DNA of 64,000 nt from Kineococcus mangrovi (GTDB lineage Bacteria; Actinomycetota; Actinomycetes; Actinomycetales; Kineococcaceae): NCBI RefSeq assembly GCF_041320705.1, contig NZ_JBGGTQ010000012.1, positions 1-64,000 on the forward strand, written 5' to 3'. This document shows, one piece after another, positions 13,383 to 52,327 of this stretch. Below the pieces are notes generated by a model, which searched no databases, was not told the origin of the DNA, and worked only from the letters and a program-made list of their open reading frames with translations. The position numbers were made by a program, and so were the translations under genes. How positions within the stretch are numbered: the first letter of the stretch is position 1; each line of letters opens with the position of its first letter.

Positions 13383-15497
13383 TCAGCCCACCCGCACCGC
13401 GACGATCGCGACGTCGTCGTCGCTGCCGTCGGGCAGCATCCGTTCCAGCAGGGCGTCGCAGACGGCGTCGACCTCGAGGTCGGCGAGGTCGCGGACGACG
13501 GAGCGCAGCTCGGCCAGGCGATCCTCCATGGGCTGGTCGCGGCGTTCCACCAGGCCGTCGGTGTAGAGCAGCAGGAGGGTGCCGGGTGCGAGGGTGCCCT
13601 CCTGCTGGTCGCGCTGCTGACCCGAGCCCAGGCCCAGCACGATGCCCTCGCCCTCGAGCAGCCGGACCTCGCCGTCGGGCGCGGCGACCACGGGCGGCAG
13701 GTGACCCGCGGTGCACCAGCGGACGCGACGCGCCCCCGGACCGGCCTCGAGCTGCATCACGACACCCGTCGCGAGCGTCGTCACGCCCAGGCCCTCGAGC
13801 AGTTCGTCGAGGCGGCGGACGACCTCGCCGGGTTGGGCGGAGCGGTCGTAGGCCAGGGCCCGCACGAGGGTGCGCAGCTGACCCATGGCGGCGGCGGCGA
13901 GGACGTCGTGGCCCATGACGTCGCCGATCACGACGACGGTGGACCCGTCCGGCTGGGTGAACGCGTCGTACCAGTCCCCGCCGACCTGCGCGGCCTCCGC
14001 CGCCGGGTGGTAGCGCGTGGCGATCGACAGCCCGGGGGAGGGGGTCGGCGGTGTCAGCAGACTGCGCTGCAGCGTCTCCGAGGACGTGCGCTGCTGCGCG
14101 TAGAGACGGGCGTTCTCCAGGGCGACCCCGGCGCGGGCGCCGAGGTCGGTGGCGGTCGCCAGGTCGTCGGTGGTGAACGGGGGGCGGTCCGGGCCCGACA
14201 GCAGCGTCAGGGAGCCCGTCACGGCCCCCCGGGCGCGCAGCGGCACGACGACGGCGCTGCCGAGGCCGAGGCGGCGCAGCACGTCGGCGGTCTCGCGCGT
14301 GGTGGTCACGGCGTCGGCGTGGTCGTCGTCGATCGAGACGAGGGTCGGGCCGAGGTCGCCGTGCAGGACGCGCATCGAGATGGAGTTGTCGCCCAGGTCG
14401 GCGTGCAGCTCCTGGAACCGCGCGGCCACCTCGGTCAGGTCGGGGTCGGCGTGCGAGGCGCGGATGTGGCGGGTGCGCCCGGAGGTGTCCAGCAGCGTCG
14501 CGAACGCCCACTCGGCGAACTCGGGCACCACGAGGGAGGGCAGGAGGTCCTGGGCCGCGTCGGGGTCCAGCACCTCGGACAGCTGGTCGGTGACCTGGGA
14601 CAGGAACTCCAGCCGGCGGCGGGCGTCGCGCGCGGCGGCGAGCGCCTCGTCGCGCTCGCGCTCGGCCTGCACCCGCAGCGTCACGTCCGACTGGACGCCG
14701 ACGAAGTGGGTGACCCGGCCCGCGGAGTCGCGGACGGGGGAGATGACGACCTCGTTCCAGAAGGCGGTGCCGTCCTTGCGGTAGTTCAGGAGCAGCTCGG
14801 TGACCGTGTCGCCGGTCTCCAGCGCCGTGCGGATGCGCCGGACCGCCTCCCGGTCGGTCTCCGGACCCTGCAGGAAGCGGCAGTTGCGCCCCAGCACGTC
14901 GCGGCCGTACCCGGTGACCTTCTCGAAGGCGGGGTTGACCCACACGAGCGGGTTGTCGGGCTGGGTGGGGTCGGAGATCGTGAACGACAGGTCGCTGGCC
15001 AGGACCGCGCGGGAGTGCAGCCGTTCGGCGGACTGCTGGGCGTCGCGCACCATGCCGGCCTCGCGCAGCGGCAGCAGGGCCACGAGGGCCAGGCTCGTGA
15101 GGGTGTCGACGGGGGCGTCGGTGAGCGGCAGCCCGATGACCCACAGCGCCTCGCGCTCGTCGGACATGTCCGAGGACCTCGCCGCGGTGACCCGTTCGCC
15201 GTGCACCGGTTCGCCGTGGACGATGCGCGACAGGGGGGAGGCGTCGTTGGTCGGGTCGTCGATGTCGTCGCCGTCCGAGCTCTGCAGACCGGCGCGGCGC
15301 GACCACTCGTCGACCGGGCAGGGGAGCCGGACCCCGGGGGCGAGCTGCTCGGCCAGGGGGTTGGCGAACAGGACGGTGCCGTCCTCGACCCGCACGAGGA
15401 GTACCGCCCCGGGTTGGCCGTGCAGGACCCGGGGCAGGTCGCTGCTCAGTGCGCCACCGGCCACGGCCGCGCTCGTCCCGTCCATCTCCTCGACCAT
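13383..15497 (-). CDS. LOV-GAF-SpoIIE blue-light-responsive serine phosphatase
   Basis: A 704-residue multidomain sensor. Residues 1-130 form a PAS-like domain. Residues about 165-275 form a full LOV domain with the flavin-adduct motif GRNCRFLQG (Cys206), NYRKDG and FVGVQSDVT. Residues about 300-460 are GAF-like, and about 480-700 form a SpoIIE/PP2C phosphatase with metal-binding QVGGDWYD, IGDVMGHD, YTDGLVE and SDDDVAIV. Blue light would form a Cys-FMN adduct and change phosphatase output, probably on a STAS anti-anti-sigma factor. It is convergent with the RsbW-like gene. The ATG at 15497 is chosen; a second at 15485 is possible. Confidence 0.9.
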   Translation of the reverse strand: MVEEMDGTSAAVAGGALSSDLPRVLHGQPGAVLLVRVEDGTVLFANPLAEQLAPGVRLPCPVDEWSRRAGLQSSDGDDIDDPTNDASPLSRIVHGEPVHGERVTAARSSDMSDEREALWVIGLPLTDAPVDTLTSLALVALLPLREAGMVRDAQQSAERLHSRAVLASDLSFTISDPTQPDNPLVWVNPAFEKVTGYGRDVLGRNCRFLQGPETDREAVRRIRTALETGDTVTELLLNYRKDGTAFWNEVVISPVRDSAGRVTHFVGVQSDVTLRVQAERERDEALAAARDARRRLEFLSQVTDQLSEVLDPDAAQDLLPSLVVPEFAEWAFATLLDTSGRTRHIRASHADPDLTEVAARFQELHADLGDNSISMRVLHGDLGPTLVSIDDDHADAVTTTRETADVLRRLGLGSAVVVPLRARGAVTGSLTLLSGPDRPPFTTDDLATATDLGARAGVALENARLYAQQRTSSETLQRSLLTPPTPSPGLSIATRYHPAAEAAQVGGDWYDAFTQPDGSTVVVIGDVMGHDVLAAAAMGQLRTLVRALAYDRSAQPGEVVRRLDELLEGLGVTTLATGVVMQLEAGPGARRVRWCTAGHLPPVVAAPDGEVRLLEGEGIVLGLGSGQQRDQQEGTLAPGTLLLLYTDGLVERRDQPMEDRLAELRSVVRDLADLEVDAVCDALLERMLPDGSDDDVAIVAVRVG

Positions 15498-15638
15498 AGC
15501 CGCGCGCGGGACCCCCCGCGAGTGCCGTCGGGCACGGGCGCTCCACCGACCCCGACACCGTCCGCGTGACGTCACAGGTACGCCCGGTGACCGTTCCGGG
15601 AGGGAGTCCGACGGGTGTCGTCCGCGTGAACGGAGGCG

Positions 15639-15911
15639 GTGCACACTGTTCGCGTGATCGCCTCGCACGACGAGTGGCTCGAGGGTCTCGACGACACCCT
15701 CCGTGCCGAAGCCCTGCACTGCCTGCTGGCCGGCACCTACTCGCGGCGGCTCCTGGAGTCCCTGCGCCGCGACGGCCCGGCGATCTCGCGCCGGGAGCGC
15801 GGCCTGGACGACCCGGAGAAGGCGCAGCCGGGTGACCCGCTCGGCGCGAACCTGCAGACGTTCCTGCGCGAACGGCTCGTCACGCAGACCCCCGAGGCCG
15901 TCAGGCTCTGA
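15639..15911 (+). CDS. Hypothetical 90-residue protein
   Basis: A small soluble protein with no domain I recognise. It is rich in Arg, Glu and Leu, mostly predicted helical, and contains SRRLLESLRRDGPAISRRERG. CGGAGG precedes a GTG at 15639 but very closely; a GTG at 15654 is an alternative. Its last codons overlap the end of the convergent GGDEF gene by 11 bases. Codon usage matches its neighbours, so it is probably a real gene. Confidence 0.55.
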   Translation: MHTVRVIASHDEWLEGLDDTLRAEALHCLLAGTYSRRLLESLRRDGPAISRRERGLDDPEKAQPGDPLGANLQTFLRERLVTQTPEAVRL

Positions 15912-44594: not shown

Positions 44595-46421
44595 TCAGGT
44601 CCCCAGGACCACCGGGTCGCCGGGGGTCAGGGCCCGCACCAGGGCGGCGACCGGCTGCGGGCGCTGGTACCAGTACCCCTGGGCCAGCGGGCACCCCAGC
44701 GCGACGAGTTCGCGTTCCTGCTCACCGGTCTCGACGCCCTCGGCGATGACGACGAGGCCGAGGTCGCCGGACATCCGCAGCAGGCCCGCCAGCAGCGCGC
44801 GCCGACGGTCGCTGACGGTGAGCTGCGCGGTGAAGTGGGCGTCGAGCTTGAGGAAGTCGGCCGGCATCGTGTCGAGCTGGCTGAGCGCGGAGTAGCCCGT
44901 CCCGAAGTCGTCGATCGCGACCCGCACGCCGACGGCCCGCAGCTCCTCCAGGGTGTCGCGCGTCGCGTCCGAGGCCGATTCCACGGTGCTCTCGGTGACC
45001 TCCACGACGAGCGCGGACAACGGCCAGCCCGTGGCGGTGGCGGTGCCCAGCAGGTCCTGCACGAAGTCGGGGTCGACGAGGTGGCGCCCGGAGGCGTTGG
45101 TGGTGAGGAAGAAGTCCTGCCCGGTCGCCTCCCGCAGCACGACCGCGTCCGCGCACGCCCGGCGGGTGACGGCCCGGTCCAGGTCGGTGATGAGGTCGTT
45201 GGCCTCGGCCAGCGGGACGAACACGGCGGGGGAGACCGGACCGTGGACGGGGTGCGTCCAGCGGGCCAGGGCCTCCACGCCCACCAGGCGCGTCGCGTCC
45301 GGGCCCGCGCCGGGGACCACGACCGGTTGCAGGACGACGTCGAGGCCGTCCTCGGCCAGCGCCGTGCGCAGGTCGTCCAGCAGGCCCTCGTCCGCCCCGC
45401 CGGCGACGGCGACCCGCCCCCGGCCGGCGGCCTTCGCCTCGTACAGCGCGGTGTCGGAGCGCCGCAGCAACGTCCCGGGGTCCTCCTCGGCCCGCAGCTG
45501 CGCGACGCCGACCGACAGCCCGGTAGGGGCGGCCTCGGCGCGCAGCGCCTGCGCGACCTCCTCCGCCCCGGCGAGGTCGGTGCCCGGCAGCACCACGGCG
45601 AACTCGTCACCGCCGTGCCGGGCGAACCCGGCGGTCGGGGCCAGGGCGTGCAGGCGCCGGGACAGCCGCTCGGCGAGGGCGACCAGCAGCTCGTCACCGG
45701 CCGCGTGGCCGCCGAGGTCGTTGACCTGCTTGAAGTGGTCGACGTCGACGAGGACGACCGACAGCGGCGCCCCCGTCCGGCGCGCGGTGCCGACGCTCTC
45801 CTCGAGCCGTTCGTCGAAACCGCGGCGGTTCAGCAGGTCGGTGAGGCCGTCGCGCGAGCCGTGGGCGGCGCGCTGGACGAGCCGGCCGATGACGACGACG
45901 ACCGCGACCTGGACCGTCATGACGGCCCCCACCACGCCGGGGTCGACCTGCCGCCACAGCAGGCTGCCCGCGACCGCGGCGAGCAGCAGCCCGGTGTGCA
46001 CCAGGGCGGCCCGGCGCGCGAAGAAGTAGAGGTTGTCCACGGCGCAGAAGACGAAGACGCAGGCCACGCCCAGAGCGGTCACGTCGTCGCGGCTCAGGAG
46101 GGTGGCGGCCGCCACGAAGCACGTCCCCTGGCCGACGACCAGGTGGAACGCCTCGCGCGGCAGGGCCCTGCCCCACCGCAGCAGGGCGGCGCCGAGCACC
46201 ACGGCGAGACCGGCCACGGCGAGCAGGCCCACCGTGCGCGGGTCCGGGTCCGCCCAGGCACCCGTCGTCGTGAGGATCCCCGCCGTCCCGCCGGCGACGT
46301 AGAACGCCCCCGTGGTGTACGCCATGAGCCGTGGTGTCGCCACCTCGGGAACCCCGCGGGAGAGCACGTCCACGCCAGACCATCGGCGTGCGCGCCCCGG
46401 TGCTTGACCGTCTGCAGCCAT
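44595..46421 (-). CDS. Membrane GGDEF-EAL protein with both sites intact
   Basis: A 608-residue protein with about seven N-terminal hydrophobic helices (residues 30-195), GGDEF (about 205-340) and EAL (about 355-600) domains. RHGGDEF is canonical but the inhibitory RxxD is missing. EAL shows GVEALARW, TTNASGR, EVTESTV, DDFGTGYS, KLDAHF, EGVET and QGYWYQRP. It could both make and degrade c-di-GMP. The ATG is three bases after the stop of the SpoIIE-type phosphatase gene and lacks its own ribosome-binding site, so the two are coupled. Its stop lies in the target duplication of the IS. Confidence 0.9.
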   Translation of the reverse strand: MAADGQAPGRARRWSGVDVLSRGVPEVATPRLMAYTTGAFYVAGGTAGILTTTGAWADPDPRTVGLLAVAGLAVVLGAALLRWGRALPREAFHLVVGQGTCFVAAATLLSRDDVTALGVACVFVFCAVDNLYFFARRAALVHTGLLLAAVAGSLLWRQVDPGVVGAVMTVQVAVVVVIGRLVQRAAHGSRDGLTDLLNRRGFDERLEESVGTARRTGAPLSVVLVDVDHFKQVNDLGGHAAGDELLVALAERLSRRLHALAPTAGFARHGGDEFAVVLPGTDLAGAEEVAQALRAEAAPTGLSVGVAQLRAEEDPGTLLRRSDTALYEAKAAGRGRVAVAGGADEGLLDDLRTALAEDGLDVVLQPVVVPGAGPDATRLVGVEALARWTHPVHGPVSPAVFVPLAEANDLITDLDRAVTRRACADAVVLREATGQDFFLTTNASGRHLVDPDFVQDLLGTATATGWPLSALVVEVTESTVESASDATRDTLEELRAVGVRVAIDDFGTGYSALSQLDTMPADFLKLDAHFTAQLTVSDRRRALLAGLLRMSGDLGLVVIAEGVETGEQERELVALGCPLAQGYWYQRPQPVAALVRALTPGDPVVLGT

Positions 46422-46424
46422 CGG

Positions 46425-48149
46425 TCAGGGGCGCGGGGCCGCACGGTCCAGCGTGAACCACACGACCTTCCCCGTCCCCTCCGGCCCCTCGCCCGGGCGG
46501 CACCCCCAGGCGGAGGCGGCGAGGTCGACGAGCTGCAGGCCCCGGCCCGAGAGGGCGTCGGGGTCGGCCGGCAGCACCTCGGGCACCCGGTCGTTGTCGT
46601 CGGAGACCTCCACGAGGAGCCGGTCGGCCGAGCTCGCGACCTGCAGCCCGACGTCGCTGCGCCCGTGCAGGACCGCGTTGGTGACCAGTTCGCTGACGAG
46701 CAGCGCGGCGACCTCCACGGTGTCCTCGTCCCAGCCGTCGTCCAGGGCGAGACGGCGCACGGCGCGGCGGGCGGCCCCCGAGGACTCCGGGGCGCAGGGG
46801 AGCAGGACGACGCGCGAGCTGGCCACCGCCTCGGCCCGGGCGGGGAGGGGCGGGTGGGCGGCCCCGGCCGCGGTGGTGCGGTGACCGACGCCGACCAGCA
46901 GGATCGTGCGGTCGTCGTCGAGGACGTCCCCGCGGCCGGGCTCCGCACGCACCTCGGCCAGCCGGTCGCAGAGGTCCTGCACGCCGGTGCGGTGGGGGTC
47001 CTCGAGCGCGCGCCCGAAGGTGACCAGCGCCTGCTCCAGGTCCCTCTCGCGGTCCTCGACCACCCCGTCGGTCACGAGGGCGAGCAGGCTGCCGGGCGGC
47101 AGCACGCGGCGGTGCTCGGTGCGTGCCTGGGAGGCGTCCACCCCGAGCAGGAGGTCGTCCCCGGCGCCGTCGCGCAGCACCTCGAGGCGGCCCCCGGGGT
47201 GGCGCACGAGCGGGGGCGGGTGACCGGCGTTGGCCCACCGCACCTCCAGCGCCCCGTCCGCCTCGACGCGCGCGGTCGCGAGCACGGCGGTGGCCAGGGT
47301 GCCGGGCTCCAGCGCCGTGGCCACGGCGTCCAGCCGGTCCAGCAGCCGTGCCGGGCCGTCGTCGCTGTCCCACGCCAGCCCGCGCAGCATGGTGCGCAAC
47401 CGGGTCATGGCGGCCGCGGCCCGCGCGTCGTGGCCCGCGACGTCACCGATGGCGAGCAGCAGGTCCCCGCGCGCCCGGGTCAGGACGTCGTACCAGTCGC
47501 CGCCGATGGAGGCGCCGGCCCGCACGGGCCGGTAGCTGACCCCGAGGTCGAGACCGGCCACGGCGGGCAGGCGGGACACCACCCCGCGCTGCAGCTCCCG
47601 GGCGAGGCCCACGACCAGCGCGGTCGCCCGGTCCTGGCGGTCCTGGGACAGCACCCGGTGCAGCGAGGGCGCGCAGTGCGCCGCGAACACCCCGAGCAGG
47701 GTCTCCTCGTCCGGCCCGAACGGGGCGGGCGCCTCCCACGACACGGCCAGCGAGCCGTAGGTCTCCTCCCCCGCGGTCAGGGGCAGCAGGGCCCACCGGG
47801 CGCGGCCGGTGACGTCGACGACGTCGGCCATCCGCGGGTGGACGGCGCGGGCCGCGGGCCGGTCCGGGACGAGGAAGGTGCGTCCCTCGCGCGCGGCTCG
47901 GCAGGCCGGCAGGGGGCTGTCGTGGGCTTCGTAGGCGAACCGGGAGCGCAACTCGTCCCCGAAGGAGGTGGCCAGCACCAGTTCCCAGCCGCCGTCCTCG
48001 GCGCGGGTCACCAGACCGCACCCGGCGGAGCCGAGGATCCGCAGCCCGTGGTCGGTGAGGGCGCGCAGGACGTCCTCGACGGTGGCGGCGCCGCTCAACC
48101 GGACGGCGAAGTCCGCCAGGTCCTCCCAGACCGACCGCGCACCGTCCAT
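46425..48149 (-). CDS. GAF-SpoIIE phosphatase-HATPase fusion
   Basis: A 574-residue regulator: a GAF-like sensor (about 15-180), a SpoIIE/PP2C phosphatase (about 200-400; SIGGDWYD, IGDVAGHD, VTDGVVE, DDDRTILLV) and a C-terminal RsbW-like ATPase (about 440-570; ELVTNAVLHG, SDDNDRVP, GRGLQLVDLA). It thus combines the phosphatase and kinase/anti-sigma roles of a partner-switching circuit in one chain. It is cotranscribed with the dual GGDEF-EAL protein downstream, linking the switch to c-di-GMP. The ATG at 48149 has GGGAG upstream. Confidence 0.9.
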   Translation of the reverse strand: MDGARSVWEDLADFAVRLSGAATVEDVLRALTDHGLRILGSAGCGLVTRAEDGGWELVLATSFGDELRSRFAYEAHDSPLPACRAAREGRTFLVPDRPAARAVHPRMADVVDVTGRARWALLPLTAGEETYGSLAVSWEAPAPFGPDEETLLGVFAAHCAPSLHRVLSQDRQDRATALVVGLARELQRGVVSRLPAVAGLDLGVSYRPVRAGASIGGDWYDVLTRARGDLLLAIGDVAGHDARAAAAMTRLRTMLRGLAWDSDDGPARLLDRLDAVATALEPGTLATAVLATARVEADGALEVRWANAGHPPPLVRHPGGRLEVLRDGAGDDLLLGVDASQARTEHRRVLPPGSLLALVTDGVVEDRERDLEQALVTFGRALEDPHRTGVQDLCDRLAEVRAEPGRGDVLDDDRTILLVGVGHRTTAAGAAHPPLPARAEAVASSRVVLLPCAPESSGAARRAVRRLALDDGWDEDTVEVAALLVSELVTNAVLHGRSDVGLQVASSADRLLVEVSDDNDRVPEVLPADPDALSGRGLQLVDLAASAWGCRPGEGPEGTGKVVWFTLDRAAPRP

Positions 48150-48281
48150 CCCGATCTCCCGGTCCTGATCGCGTTCCTGCTGGCAGTGCGTCGCGAGCAC
48201 ACCACACCGAGTGCTCGGTGCCCGCGGGGCACGGTCGGTCGAATCGTCTCACGGGAGCCCCCGGAACGTCGCCCGGGACCT

Positions 48282-49503: not shown

Positions 49504-50094
49504 ATGGGCCGGTCGCAGACCTTCGACACCGCCACCGTCGTCCGGGCGGCGCGCACCCTCTTCTGGCAGCGCGGGTACGAGGACGTCTCCGTGCCCGACC
49601 TCGAGGAGGTCACCGGGATCAAGCGGTCGAGCCTCTACCACGCCTTCGGCAGCAAGCGGGGGGTGTTCGACGCGGCCGTCGACAGCTACCTCGAGGACGT
49701 CGTCCGCCCGCGGCTGCGTCCCCTCCAGGGGCCCGACGTCGCCCCCGAGGCCCTCGTGACGACGTACCTCGGCGGGCTGCGCGCCGCCCTCGCCGACGGC
49801 CGGCCCGCCGCGCTGCAGACCGGTTGCCTCCTGGTGAACTCCGCCACCGCCCCCGTCGGCCGGGACGAGGCGGTGGCCCAGGTCGTGCACGACTACCGCG
49901 CCGAGCTGCACGCCGCCTTCCGGCGGGGGGCGCTCGCGGCGGGGGTCGCGGCGCCGGAGCAGGTGGCGACGCTGTGCACGTCGGCCGTCGTCAGCGCGTT
50001 CGTGCTCGCGCGGATCGACCCGGCCGAGGCGGTCGCGACGCTGGACGCGGTGCTCGACGTCGTGACGCGGGAGGGCGGGGTCCTCAGACGGTGA
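49504..50094 (+). CDS. TetR-family transcriptional regulator
   Basis: A 196-residue repressor. The N-terminal HTH region reads FDTATVVRAARTLFWQRGYEDVSVPDLEE (given here only as a span), then GIKRSSLYHAFGSKRGVFDAAV; LYHAFGSK is the family signature. The C-terminal domain, with GCLLVNSA, resembles the TetR_C group often paired with reductases. It likely represses the divergent NADP-dependent reductase gene. Its last 11 bases overlap the 3' end of the convergent LOV photoreceptor gene. Confidence 0.9.
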   Translation: MGRSQTFDTATVVRAARTLFWQRGYEDVSVPDLEEVTGIKRSSLYHAFGSKRGVFDAAVDSYLEDVVRPRLRPLQGPDVAPEALVTTYLGGLRAALADGRPAALQTGCLLVNSATAPVGRDEAVAQVVHDYRAELHAAFRRGALAAGVAAPEQVATLCTSAVVSAFVLARIDPAEAVATLDAVLDVVTREGGVLRR

Positions 50095-52327
50095 CCCGCC
50101 CGCGCTTGACCCGGTACATCGCGTGGTCGGCGTTCCGCAGCAGGTCCTCGAACGTCGTGCCGTGCCGGCCGGACACCGCGACACCGGTGCTGATGCCCAG
50201 GGACAGCTGGACCCCGTGCAGGTCCACGGGATCGGCGACGCGGGCGGCCACGCCGGCCACCGCGCGGGCGGCGACGTCCTCGGCGTCGTCGGGGGCCAGG
50301 CCGGTGAGCGCGACGATGAACTCGTCGCCACCCAGGCGCGCCAGGACCGCCCCGGCCGGGGTGGCCTCGCGCAGCCGCCGCGCCACCTCCACCAGCAGGT
50401 CGTCCCCGGCCGCGTGGCCGAGTTCGTCGTTGACGACCTTGAAGTCGTCGAGGTCGCAGAACAGCAGCGCGGTGCGCGCGTCGGTGCGGCGCAGCGCCTC
50501 CTCGACGAGGGGTTCGACGCGCCGCCGGTTCGCCAGCCCGGTCAGCGGGTCGGTGTAGGCGAACTCCTCGATGCGCCGCAGGTGCTCGCGGGACCGCTCG
50601 CGTTCGACCTCCAGCTCCTGCTGGGCCCGGACGCGGGCGGTCACGTCGTTCTGGACGCCGATGTACTGCACGACGCGGCCGGTCGCGTCGGCCACGGGTG
50701 CGAGGTAGACCTCGTTCCACCACGGTTCGCGCTGCGGGCCGCGGTGGTTCAGCAGCACCCCGCGCCACTCCTGGCCGGACTGCAGGGCCGACCGGATCTC
50801 GTTCAGCGTGCCCCGGTCGGTGTCCGGCCCCTGCAGCAGACGGCAGTTGCGGCCCAGGACGTCCTCGGACCGGAACCCGGACAGTTCCTCGAACGCGGAG
50901 TTCACGTAGACCAGCGGGTGGTCCGGGCGCAGCATGTCGGCGATCGAGATGCCGCTGCTCGTCGCGCCGAGGGCGCGCTGCAGCAACGCCTCCGCGGTGC
51001 CCGCGGCGACGGCCCCGGTGGGGCGCGCGGCGGTGCGCGGGGGGACCGCGTCGCGCGGGGCCGCGGCGGGGACCTCCGTCGCGGCGGCGGTGCGCGGGGC
51101 GACCCGGGACAGCAGCGACTGCGCGGCCGCCGCCACGGTGGCGCGCTCGTAGGTCAGCGCGTACTCGAACGTCCGCTCCCGCTCGGGAGCGTCGTCGCCG
51201 AGGTCGCGGGCCAGCAGGGCCGCGGCGAAGTGCGGGGCCAGCACGACGACGTCCCACTCCCCGCGCACCGGGTCCTGCGGGCTCAGGGAGGCCCCGCGGA
51301 CACCGGGCAGGGGCGTCTCCGGCAGGTCCTCACCGAGAGCGCAGACGAAACCCACGCGGTCGGCGAGGTCGCGGTACCGGCTGCGGGTGGCCGGGGTGAA
51401 GTGCCGGGCGTACTGGAACGTCGAGGCGACGACGCACGTCTCGCCCAGGCGCATCGCCTCGCGCTCGAGCTGCTTGCTGAGCTCGATGAGCAGCGCCTTG
51501 GGGGCGCGGCGCAGCGGGGTCCCGGCGGGCAGCAGCGCGAACGGCGAGGACGGTTCGGTGCCCGCGACCGCCACCGGCGCCGGCAGGACGAGCTCGGCGA
51601 CGGCGGGCGCCGGCGACGGCGGAGCCGCGGGCCGGCCGAACAACCAGCCCTGACCCAGCTGGGCGCCCAGCGCCCGGGCGGTCAGCAGGTGCCGCTCGTC
51701 CTCGATGCCCTCGGCCAGGACCAGCGCCCCGGACTCCTGCGCGTACGCGTTGACGGCGTTCATGATCTGCGCGACGGCCGGGCCGGGCCGGTCCTGCACC
51801 AGGCGCAGGTCGAGCTTGACGACGTCCGGGCGCAGCAGCGGCATGAACGCCAGGGACATCGCGTCCGCGCCGACGTCGTCCAGGGCGATGGCCCAGCCGA
51901 GCTCGCGCACGCGGGTCACGGTCCGCAGCAGCTCGGCGGGCCGGGCCGCGAGGGCGCGCTCGGTGATCTCCACGACGACGCGCAGCCCGGTCGGGGCGCC
52001 GTCGGCCAGGGCCATGAGCTCGGTCAGCGGCGCCGCGTCGAGGATCTCCGGTTCGACGTTGACGAAGAGCGTCAGCGGTGCGACCACGCCGTGCTCCAGC
52101 GCGCCGCGCAGGGCGGCGGCGCGGCAGGCGTGGTCGAGCTCGGACAGCACGTCCTCGGCGCGGGCCGCGGCGAACAGCTGGTCGGGGCGCTGCAGCGGGC
52201 CGACCGGGCCGCGCGCGAGCGCCTCGTAGGCGACGACGGCACCGGTGTCGAGGTCCACGATCGGCTGGAAGACGCTGTGGACGGCCCGCTCGCGCAGGAC
52301 CTCGTGGATCGTCGCACCGTTCGTCAC
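50084..52327 (-). CDS. EAL-DICT-LOV-GGDEF blue-light c-di-GMP enzyme
   Basis: A 747-residue soluble protein with an unusual order. An EAL domain comes first (about 1-235; AYEALARG, FVNVEP, EITERA, KLDLRL, AEGIED, GQGWLFGRP; the loop-6 motif is DDVGADAMS). A DICT sensory domain follows (about 258-410; KALLIELSKQLE, ASTFQYARHF). Next is a LOV domain (about 450-555) with the flavin-adduct Cys495 in GRNCRLLQG, then a GGDEF domain (about 575-745; RLGGDEF intact, no inhibitory RxxD). Light could shift the balance of synthesis and breakdown. The GTG has AAGGA upstream. Confidence 0.9.
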   Translation of the reverse strand: MTNGATIHEVLRERAVHSVFQPIVDLDTGAVVAYEALARGPVGPLQRPDQLFAAARAEDVLSELDHACRAAALRGALEHGVVAPLTLFVNVEPEILDAAPLTELMALADGAPTGLRVVVEITERALAARPAELLRTVTRVRELGWAIALDDVGADAMSLAFMPLLRPDVVKLDLRLVQDRPGPAVAQIMNAVNAYAQESGALVLAEGIEDERHLLTARALGAQLGQGWLFGRPAAPPSPAPAVAELVLPAPVAVAGTEPSSPFALLPAGTPLRRAPKALLIELSKQLEREAMRLGETCVVASTFQYARHFTPATRSRYRDLADRVGFVCALGEDLPETPLPGVRGASLSPQDPVRGEWDVVVLAPHFAAALLARDLGDDAPERERTFEYALTYERATVAAAAQSLLSRVAPRTAAATEVPAAAPRDAVPPRTAARPTGAVAAGTAEALLQRALGATSSGISIADMLRPDHPLVYVNSAFEELSGFRSEDVLGRNCRLLQGPDTDRGTLNEIRSALQSGQEWRGVLLNHRGPQREPWWNEVYLAPVADATGRVVQYIGVQNDVTARVRAQQELEVERERSREHLRRIEEFAYTDPLTGLANRRRVEPLVEEALRRTDARTALLFCDLDDFKVVNDELGHAAGDDLLVEVARRLREATPAGAVLARLGGDEFIVALTGLAPDDAEDVAARAVAGVAARVADPVDLHGVQLSLGISTGVAVSGRHGTTFEDLLRNADHAMYRVKRGRVTV

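Follow-up and report, generated by a model that had tools for sequence, protein, structure and literature searches.

Among bacterial LOV proteins about 18% have a GGDEF domain or GGDEF together with EAL (PMC4844311), and a review names few LOV proteins with both GGDEF and EAL whose light-controlled enzyme is known, for instance SL2 (PMC8846402), which has blue-light phosphodiesterase activity (PMC8846402, PMC10396304). LadC proteins fall into two subfamilies by linker length, 35 or 21 residues; each of the four members characterised is up-regulated by blue light, and the activation is about 15-fold with the short linker and more than 10,000-fold with the long one (PMC10396304). The authors of that work consider it plausible that in such multidomain proteins light is aimed at EAL (PMC10396304). 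Here we analyse a gene at positions 50084-52327, minus strand, of a 64,000-nucleotide stretch of Kineococcus mangrovi DNA (contig NZ_JBGGTQ010000012.1, positions 1 to 64,000; further called the window), whose product carries EAL, DICT, LOV and GGDEF in this order. We suggest, giving it an even chance, that it may be a two-output blue-light receptor, in which a light-activated cyclase is combined with a light-influenced, DICT-tuned phosphodiesterase of cyclic dimeric guanosine monophosphate (c-di-GMP).

The domain order and the coordinates had been proposed in a preliminary description of the window, and both were confirmed by Pfam, where every domain lies above its curated cut-off (for DICT 43.4 against 23.8 bits); the query was the protein minus its first residue, and the residue numbers given here are those of the full protein. 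The features are listed below with their expectation values (E) or model scores, pLDDT being the predicted local distance difference test.

50084-52327, minus strand: whole gene EAL-DICT-LOV-GGDEF, 747 amino acids, GTG start
51629-52297, minus strand: EAL phosphodiesterase domain, residues 11-233 (Pfam E 3.3e-39)
51092-51565, minus strand: DICT as modelled, residues 255-412 (structure model)
51203-51508, minus strand: DICT Pfam core PF10069, residues 274-375 (E 3.9e-11)
50999-51085, minus strand: Ala/Pro-rich tether, residues 415-443, probably disordered (pLDDT <50)
50639-50992, minus strand: LOV domain, residues 446-563 (PAS_9 match, residues 467-564, E 1.1e-14)
50843-50845, minus strand: codon of the photo-adduct cysteine C495 (LOV motif)
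50555-50641, minus strand: continuous LOV-GGDEF helix, residues 563-591 (AlphaFold2 model; length equals that of MsLadC, 8c05)
50102-50560, minus strand: GGDEF diguanylate cyclase domain, residues 590-742 (Pfam E 9.2e-40)
50318-50332, minus strand: GGDEF active-site motif, residues 666-670, intact (sequence motif)

The same description regarded this domain order as unusual, which does not hold in nature: an architecture search collected at least 102 distinct proteins that share it, mostly from Kineosporiaceae and Geodermatophilaceae, and EAL-DICT-LOV-GGDEF is the usual order of a widespread actinobacterial family rather than a single fusion. Forty-seven of these proteins came from a search for DICT in overlapping sets of 11 genus, 396 order and 394 class genomes, in which 11/11, 60/396 and 47/394 genomes, respectively, had a DICT match. 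The 87 loci analysed comprise 47 four-domain proteins, 13 EAL-DICT proteins, 22 with DICT and none of the other three domains, and 5 others, the four-domain share being inflated by 20 loci that were picked for open frames above 600 amino acids; a further 53 DICT matches in the order and class sets, all in frames below 600 amino acids, lie outside the 87, and six of them were used for neighbours only. In the genus Kineococcus, 16 of the 18 DICT loci have the four-domain order, with at least one copy in each of the 11 genomes. The other 55 proteins are the distinct ones that remained, after removal of 15 duplicates, from 70 four-domain frames among the best 80 of 569 loci in named genomes, retrieved with sequence patterns that include catalytic residues of EAL; their genera are Blastococcus, Geodermatophilus, Modestobacter, Klenkia, Kineococcus, Pseudokineococcus, Quadrisphaera, Cellulomonas, Motilibacter and a few others. 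No description of EAL-DICT-LOV-GGDEF was found in the literature by title, abstract start or passages, subscription papers and supplements being outside the searchable part, and the same literature yielded no characterisation of EAL-DICT proteins. One four-domain protein (L165, 62% identity) lies on a contig titled Candidatus Melainabacteria, which is perhaps misbinned actinobacterial DNA.

Both catalytic sites are intact in the window protein. All 12 EAL positions that we checked are present, among them E35, N90, E120, E123, D150, D151, K171, E206, E209 and Q226, and they are identical in 102/102 proteins; we take these positions to include the catalytic set of RocR-type enzymes. EAL is also intact in 47/47 of the proteins found via DICT, the subset unbiased by EAL-motif patterns, where GGDEF is unaltered in 42/47. 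On the cyclase side the GGDEF motif at 666-670 is accompanied by D625, N633, D634, D642 and K741, presumably the metal and substrate residues of GGDEF cyclases.

The PAS domain of the protein is of the LOV type. Its GRNCRLLQ at residues 492-499 matches the consensus GXNCRXXQ with the adduct cysteine, so that Cys495 had been named rightly, and it contains N494, R496, Q499, N527, N538 and Q559, which we assume to be the flavin-contact positions of LOV domains. Of the solved structures, 8c05 matches best, with E 1.3e-40 over residues 445-741; it belongs to a LOV-activated diguanylate cyclase. The cysteine is kept in 100/102 proteins of the family and in 45/47 of the DICT-found subset, the motif (G/A)xNCRxxQ in 44 of the 47 four-domain proteins from DICT loci, and N527, N538 and Q559 each in 100/102. 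The proposal of a bifunctional photoreceptor is well supported by sequence alone. Two paralogues, L003 of Kineococcus rubinsiae and L004 of K. siccus, no longer have the LOV cysteine (NC to SA) or the flavin contacts, and their GGDEF is likewise altered, in the motif (L003) or at the D625 position (L004).

From LOV to GGDEF the window protein aligns with MsLadC without gaps, and the distance from G of GVQ/GIQ to D of DxLTGL is 36 residues in both. Across the family the distance from Q559 to D593 is 34 in 93 proteins, 20 in 8 and 32 in 1; the two main linker lengths thus differ by 14 residues, or two heptads, which mirrors the 35- and 21-residue subfamilies of LadC. Hydrophobic periodicity of the linker has power peaks at 3.6 and then 3.5, which indicates a helix and does not separate a coiled coil from a single amphipathic helix. 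The AlphaFold2 model of the whole protein, built on an alignment of 47 sequences (mean pLDDT 88.9, predicted template-modelling score, pTM, 0.58), is confident for the four domains and not for their mutual placement; in it residues 563-591 form a single continuous helix, the spacer at 415-443 between DICT and LOV has a pLDDT below 50, and 8c05 is again the top match, here by Foldseek. The long fixed linker supports, without proving, a light-driven cyclase that may act via helical register.

Evidence that light may matter for more than the cyclase comes from relatives in which the cyclase has decayed. The GGDEF motif or D625 is altered in 15/102 proteins, L118 (GGEEF) and L004 (GGDEF) being scored so via the D625 position while their motif letters were counted as intact, and 13 of these 15 keep the LOV cysteine. 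Four Modestobacter loci have LOV and the following helix and then end, with no GGDEF, in agreement with Pfam on the one that was run through it (L134); another protein, L030, lacks GGDEF where similar proteins have it, which may be due to a frameshift. For 107 proteins a quick tree was computed with no mixture model, five of them, L030 included, being labelled as having no GGDEF; the distribution of intact and non-intact GGDEF on it needs at least 7 changes, of which 6 are forced by starred branches. In Blastococcus the median pairwise ratio of nonsynonymous to synonymous substitution rates (dN/dS) among nine proteins with altered GGDEF is 0.487 for GGDEF, 0.213 for LOV, 0.134 for EAL and 0.124 for DICT; among 16 with intact GGDEF (16/18 loci gave a four-domain frame) the values are 0.288, 0.249, 0.128 and 0.172, respectively. 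In this genus, therefore, LOV stays constrained where GGDEF decays. Where LOV is kept beside a decayed cyclase, the simplest reading is that it works for the EAL-DICT half too, so that light probably serves both halves. Seven other Blastococcus frames (L099, L103, L126, L138, L158, L161, L167) have EAL-DICT-GGDEF with no LOV and a degenerate GGDEF motif; in five of these loci (all except L138 and L158) the frame lies downstream of a four-domain gene, which suggests tandem duplication.

Taken in this way, the architecture would be an EAL-DICT phosphodiesterase module, which also exists on its own, joined to a LadC-like LOV-GGDEF module. Blue light would form the Cys495-flavin adduct, the coiled coil at 563-591 would change its register through the LOV dimer, and the paired GGDEF domains would switch on; c-di-GMP synthesis would thus go up in light, as it does in MsLadC. 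The same LOV dimer may influence the EAL-DICT half via the dimer arrangement and not as a rigid rod, and DICT is probably the sensor of another signal, a chemical one, that acts on the EAL half; as to the sign of the light effect on EAL, we predict no direction. The preliminary description went further in viewing light as a possible toggle between the two enzymes, which is plausible, though not shown. One may even suggest that the middle LOV dimer is a shared switch, which raises cyclase activity via the rigid coiled coil and lowers (or raises) that of the phosphodiesterase via the dimer, so that blue light flips the sign of the output, lineages with a decayed cyclase act as light-controlled phosphodiesterases, and the TrmB- or phospholipase-D-like DICT (see below) adds a chemical veto; this extended version we hold as tentative and, as a whole, unlikely.

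Several points weigh against the two-output reading. The common consensus of EAL loop 6 is DDFG(T/A)G, and the loop of the window protein, DDVGADAMSL at residues 150-159, does not match a DDFGTGYSS-like sequence; D150, D151, V152, G153 and A154 occur in 47/47 rows of the DICT-found alignment, and with DDVGAD in this place EAL activity is not guaranteed. The spacer between DICT and LOV varies from 29 to 78 residues between domain edges in the 102 proteins, and so long and variable a tether makes direct coupling of light to EAL less obvious. Proteins with intact GGDEF do not reveal which output light controls, the 107-protein tree is a quick one with long branches, and the dN/dS pairs share ancestry and are not independent. 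The RxxD product-inhibition site, present in 94/102 proteins of the family, reads PAGA in the window protein; LadC authors connect RxxD with tight dark inhibition (PMC12805367), and the dark state of the window protein may thus differ from that of LadC, although AoLadC likewise lacks RxxD and is yet light-regulated (PMC10396304). Finally, according to the passages on the SL2 study, synthesis was not regulated by light in two short-linker LOV-GGDEF constructs, one of which was without the GGDEF residues (PMC10396304, PMC8846402). The stronger objection that a floppy tether bars light from EAL is weakened by the proteins that keep LOV while their GGDEF is altered or missing.

Among the other explanations, the one that survives best is that light controls the cyclase only, while EAL-DICT is an independent, DICT-controlled phosphodiesterase on a flexible tether that adjusts the local balance, and blue light raises c-di-GMP. 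It agrees with the fixed linker equal to that of MsLadC, with the variable tether modelled at low confidence, and with the existence of EAL-DICT proteins that have no LOV. We consider it unlikely, as 13 of the 15 proteins whose GGDEF is altered retain the LOV cysteine, the nine of them from Blastococcus show constraint on LOV, and LOV persists in the four GGDEF-less loci, where nothing would be left for it to control. That the phosphodiesterase is the main target of light, as in SL2, with GGDEF serving as a regulatory part that binds guanosine triphosphate or as a dimerising part even when its motif is intact, appears to us improbable. The motif and D625 are kept in 87/102 proteins, in Blastococcus purifying selection acts on GGDEF in the 16 proteins that have it intact (dN/dS 0.288), and the linker lengths match those of light-activated cyclases; the EAL sites unchanged in 102/102 against GGDEF altered in 15/102 would speak for it, together with the repeated decay of GGDEF on the tree and the SL2 precedent (PMC8846402), but the EAL figure is biased in part, since the search that gave the 55 named-genome proteins used EAL-residue patterns. 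A protein with no working photoreceptor, whose LOV is a redox or dimerisation PAS domain, is very unlikely given the cysteine and the contacts N527, N538 and Q559, each kept in 100/102 proteins, even if two relatives (L003, L004) have lost the cysteine and RmcA is a known case of a LOV-like domain that senses redox state through flavin (PMC8846402).

The two-output reading leaves to DICT the tuning of the phosphodiesterase. A model of residues 255-412, based on 81 DICT sequences (pLDDT 93.7, pTM 0.89), has as its best structural neighbours in VIA-align TrmB (Z 11.0, root-mean-square deviation 3.5, 122 residues aligned) and NucT (Z 10.3), a comparison that does not exclude unlisted families and in which a shared fold shows no function; the Foldseek matches are modest (NucT E 7.6e-4, TrmB E 8.6e-4). 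By this structure comparison the TrmB neighbour is the sugar-binding domain of an archaeal regulator and NucT is a phospholipase-D-type protein. TrmB and phospholipase D have a fold in common, and the predicted DICT fold appears to resemble proteins of this group; our literature searches were not aimed at whether such a resemblance has already been reported. The HKD motif (HxKxxxxD), which we take to be the catalytic motif of the phospholipase-D superfamily, is absent from all 81 DICT sequences, and because of this the better guess would be that DICT is a non-catalytic ligand-binding domain.

The preliminary description also mentioned a link of DICT to light. We looked at the surroundings of short DICT genes without EAL and LOV at 20 loci from the class set, with no control loci; 155 of the 159 called genes there were scanned. 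Among the 25 commonest families, of 78 and of 86 in the two DICT neighbourhood tables, there were 18 DICT and 18 MerR_1 matches, which we infer to be the same genes, together with 5 amine-oxidase, 2 lycopene-cyclase and 2 photolyase matches; the amine-oxidase Pfam family presumably includes carotenoid desaturases. Directly beside the DICT gene lie three amine-oxidase genes and one photolyase (a photolyase and an amine oxidase in L175; also L180 and L182). The DICT-light connection is a published prediction (PMC8612252), and a figure legend that deals with putative photoreceptors of the cobalamin type includes DICT (PMC11796333); the light-related neighbours fit this guess and give it some support.

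EAL-DICT proteins that lack both LOV and GGDEF keep all twelve EAL sites in 14/17 cases. The host genome itself has such a protein as its second DICT protein (L002, G000:C2:252784-253899), in which G replaces R of EALxR. EAL can thus decay in this wider group: a distant EAL-DICT protein (L063) has lost most of the EAL residues. One EAL-DICT protein is only partly readable (L073), in L075 no EAL match was found in frame, and L035 is a DICT-GGDEF protein with no EAL.

In the window a TetR regulator shares 11 bases with the 3' end of the gene; the other neighbours are an ADH-type oxidoreductase and a ROK gene in divergent orientation, and none of the three is an operon partner. A scan for sigma-70-like promoters found none, one terminator-like match falls within the gene, and an Rfam scan of the window gave one tRNA, away from the gene, and nothing bearing on 50084-52327. 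For 19 loci of relatives with 106 called genes, SpoU methylase was found in 8 genes, ribosomal protein L20 in 6 and IF-3 in 5, against 3 genes with GGDEF and 2 with EAL, these counts being rough, because the gene caller overlooked known genes in a trial on the window. Part of the family thus sits at a housekeeping location, and no consistent light or c-di-GMP partner occurs among the 25 commonest of 73 neighbour families of these 19 loci. A second LOV protein is encoded in the window at 13383-15719, minus strand (778 amino acids, LOV-GAF-SpoIIE of the PP2C phosphatase type, motif GRNCRFLQ), possibly a light-regulated stress-response phosphatase. Further, a GAF-SpoIIE-HATPase_c_2 gene (46425-48200, minus strand) and a GGDEF-EAL gene (44595-46421, minus strand) lie on the same strand with three bases between them and possibly share one transcript.

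The host genome has 39 EAL matches, and the effect of a knock-out may therefore be masked. The family itself offers natural versions of the protein, with the cyclase intact, altered (15/102, 13 of them with the LOV cysteine) or absent (four loci), and the question of which output light controls is therefore testable by comparison of relatives. The DICT domain, which a 2022 review described as having no discernible purpose (PMC8846402), gains a concrete structural hypothesis. A toggle, if true, would be a one-protein optogenetic switch of c-di-GMP.

Compared with the known systems, the window protein shares with BlrP1 of Klebsiella pneumoniae (BLUF-EAL; PMC8846402) an EAL phosphodiesterase under putative blue-light control, whereas the sensor of BlrP1, as given in the passages on it, is a BLUF domain with flavin adenine dinucleotide, accompanied by neither GGDEF nor DICT. 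The DICT-HD-GYP protein of Microcystis (PMC7063779) likewise pairs DICT with a c-di-GMP phosphodiesterase, but there HD-GYP replaces EAL, with no light domain. Actinobacterial EAL-DICT proteins have the same front half and lack LOV and GGDEF. SL2 of Synechococcus elongatus (LOV-GGDEF-EAL) has LOV, GGDEF and EAL in one polypeptide too (PMC10396304, PMC8846402); EAL is last in SL2 and first in the window protein, DICT is not mentioned for SL2 in the passages concerned, and the constructs of the SL2 study have a short linker of 21 residues in contrast to the long one here, so that the window protein, with its order reversed, is not of the SL2 type. With LadC (MsLadC, PDB 8c05; PMC10396304) it shares LOV directly before GGDEF, a long linker of equal length, and the intact cysteine and GGDEF motif, but LadC is LOV-GGDEF only, while the window protein adds EAL and DICT in front and lacks RxxD; its back half may well work like LadC, and the whole protein is something other than a stand-alone LadC.

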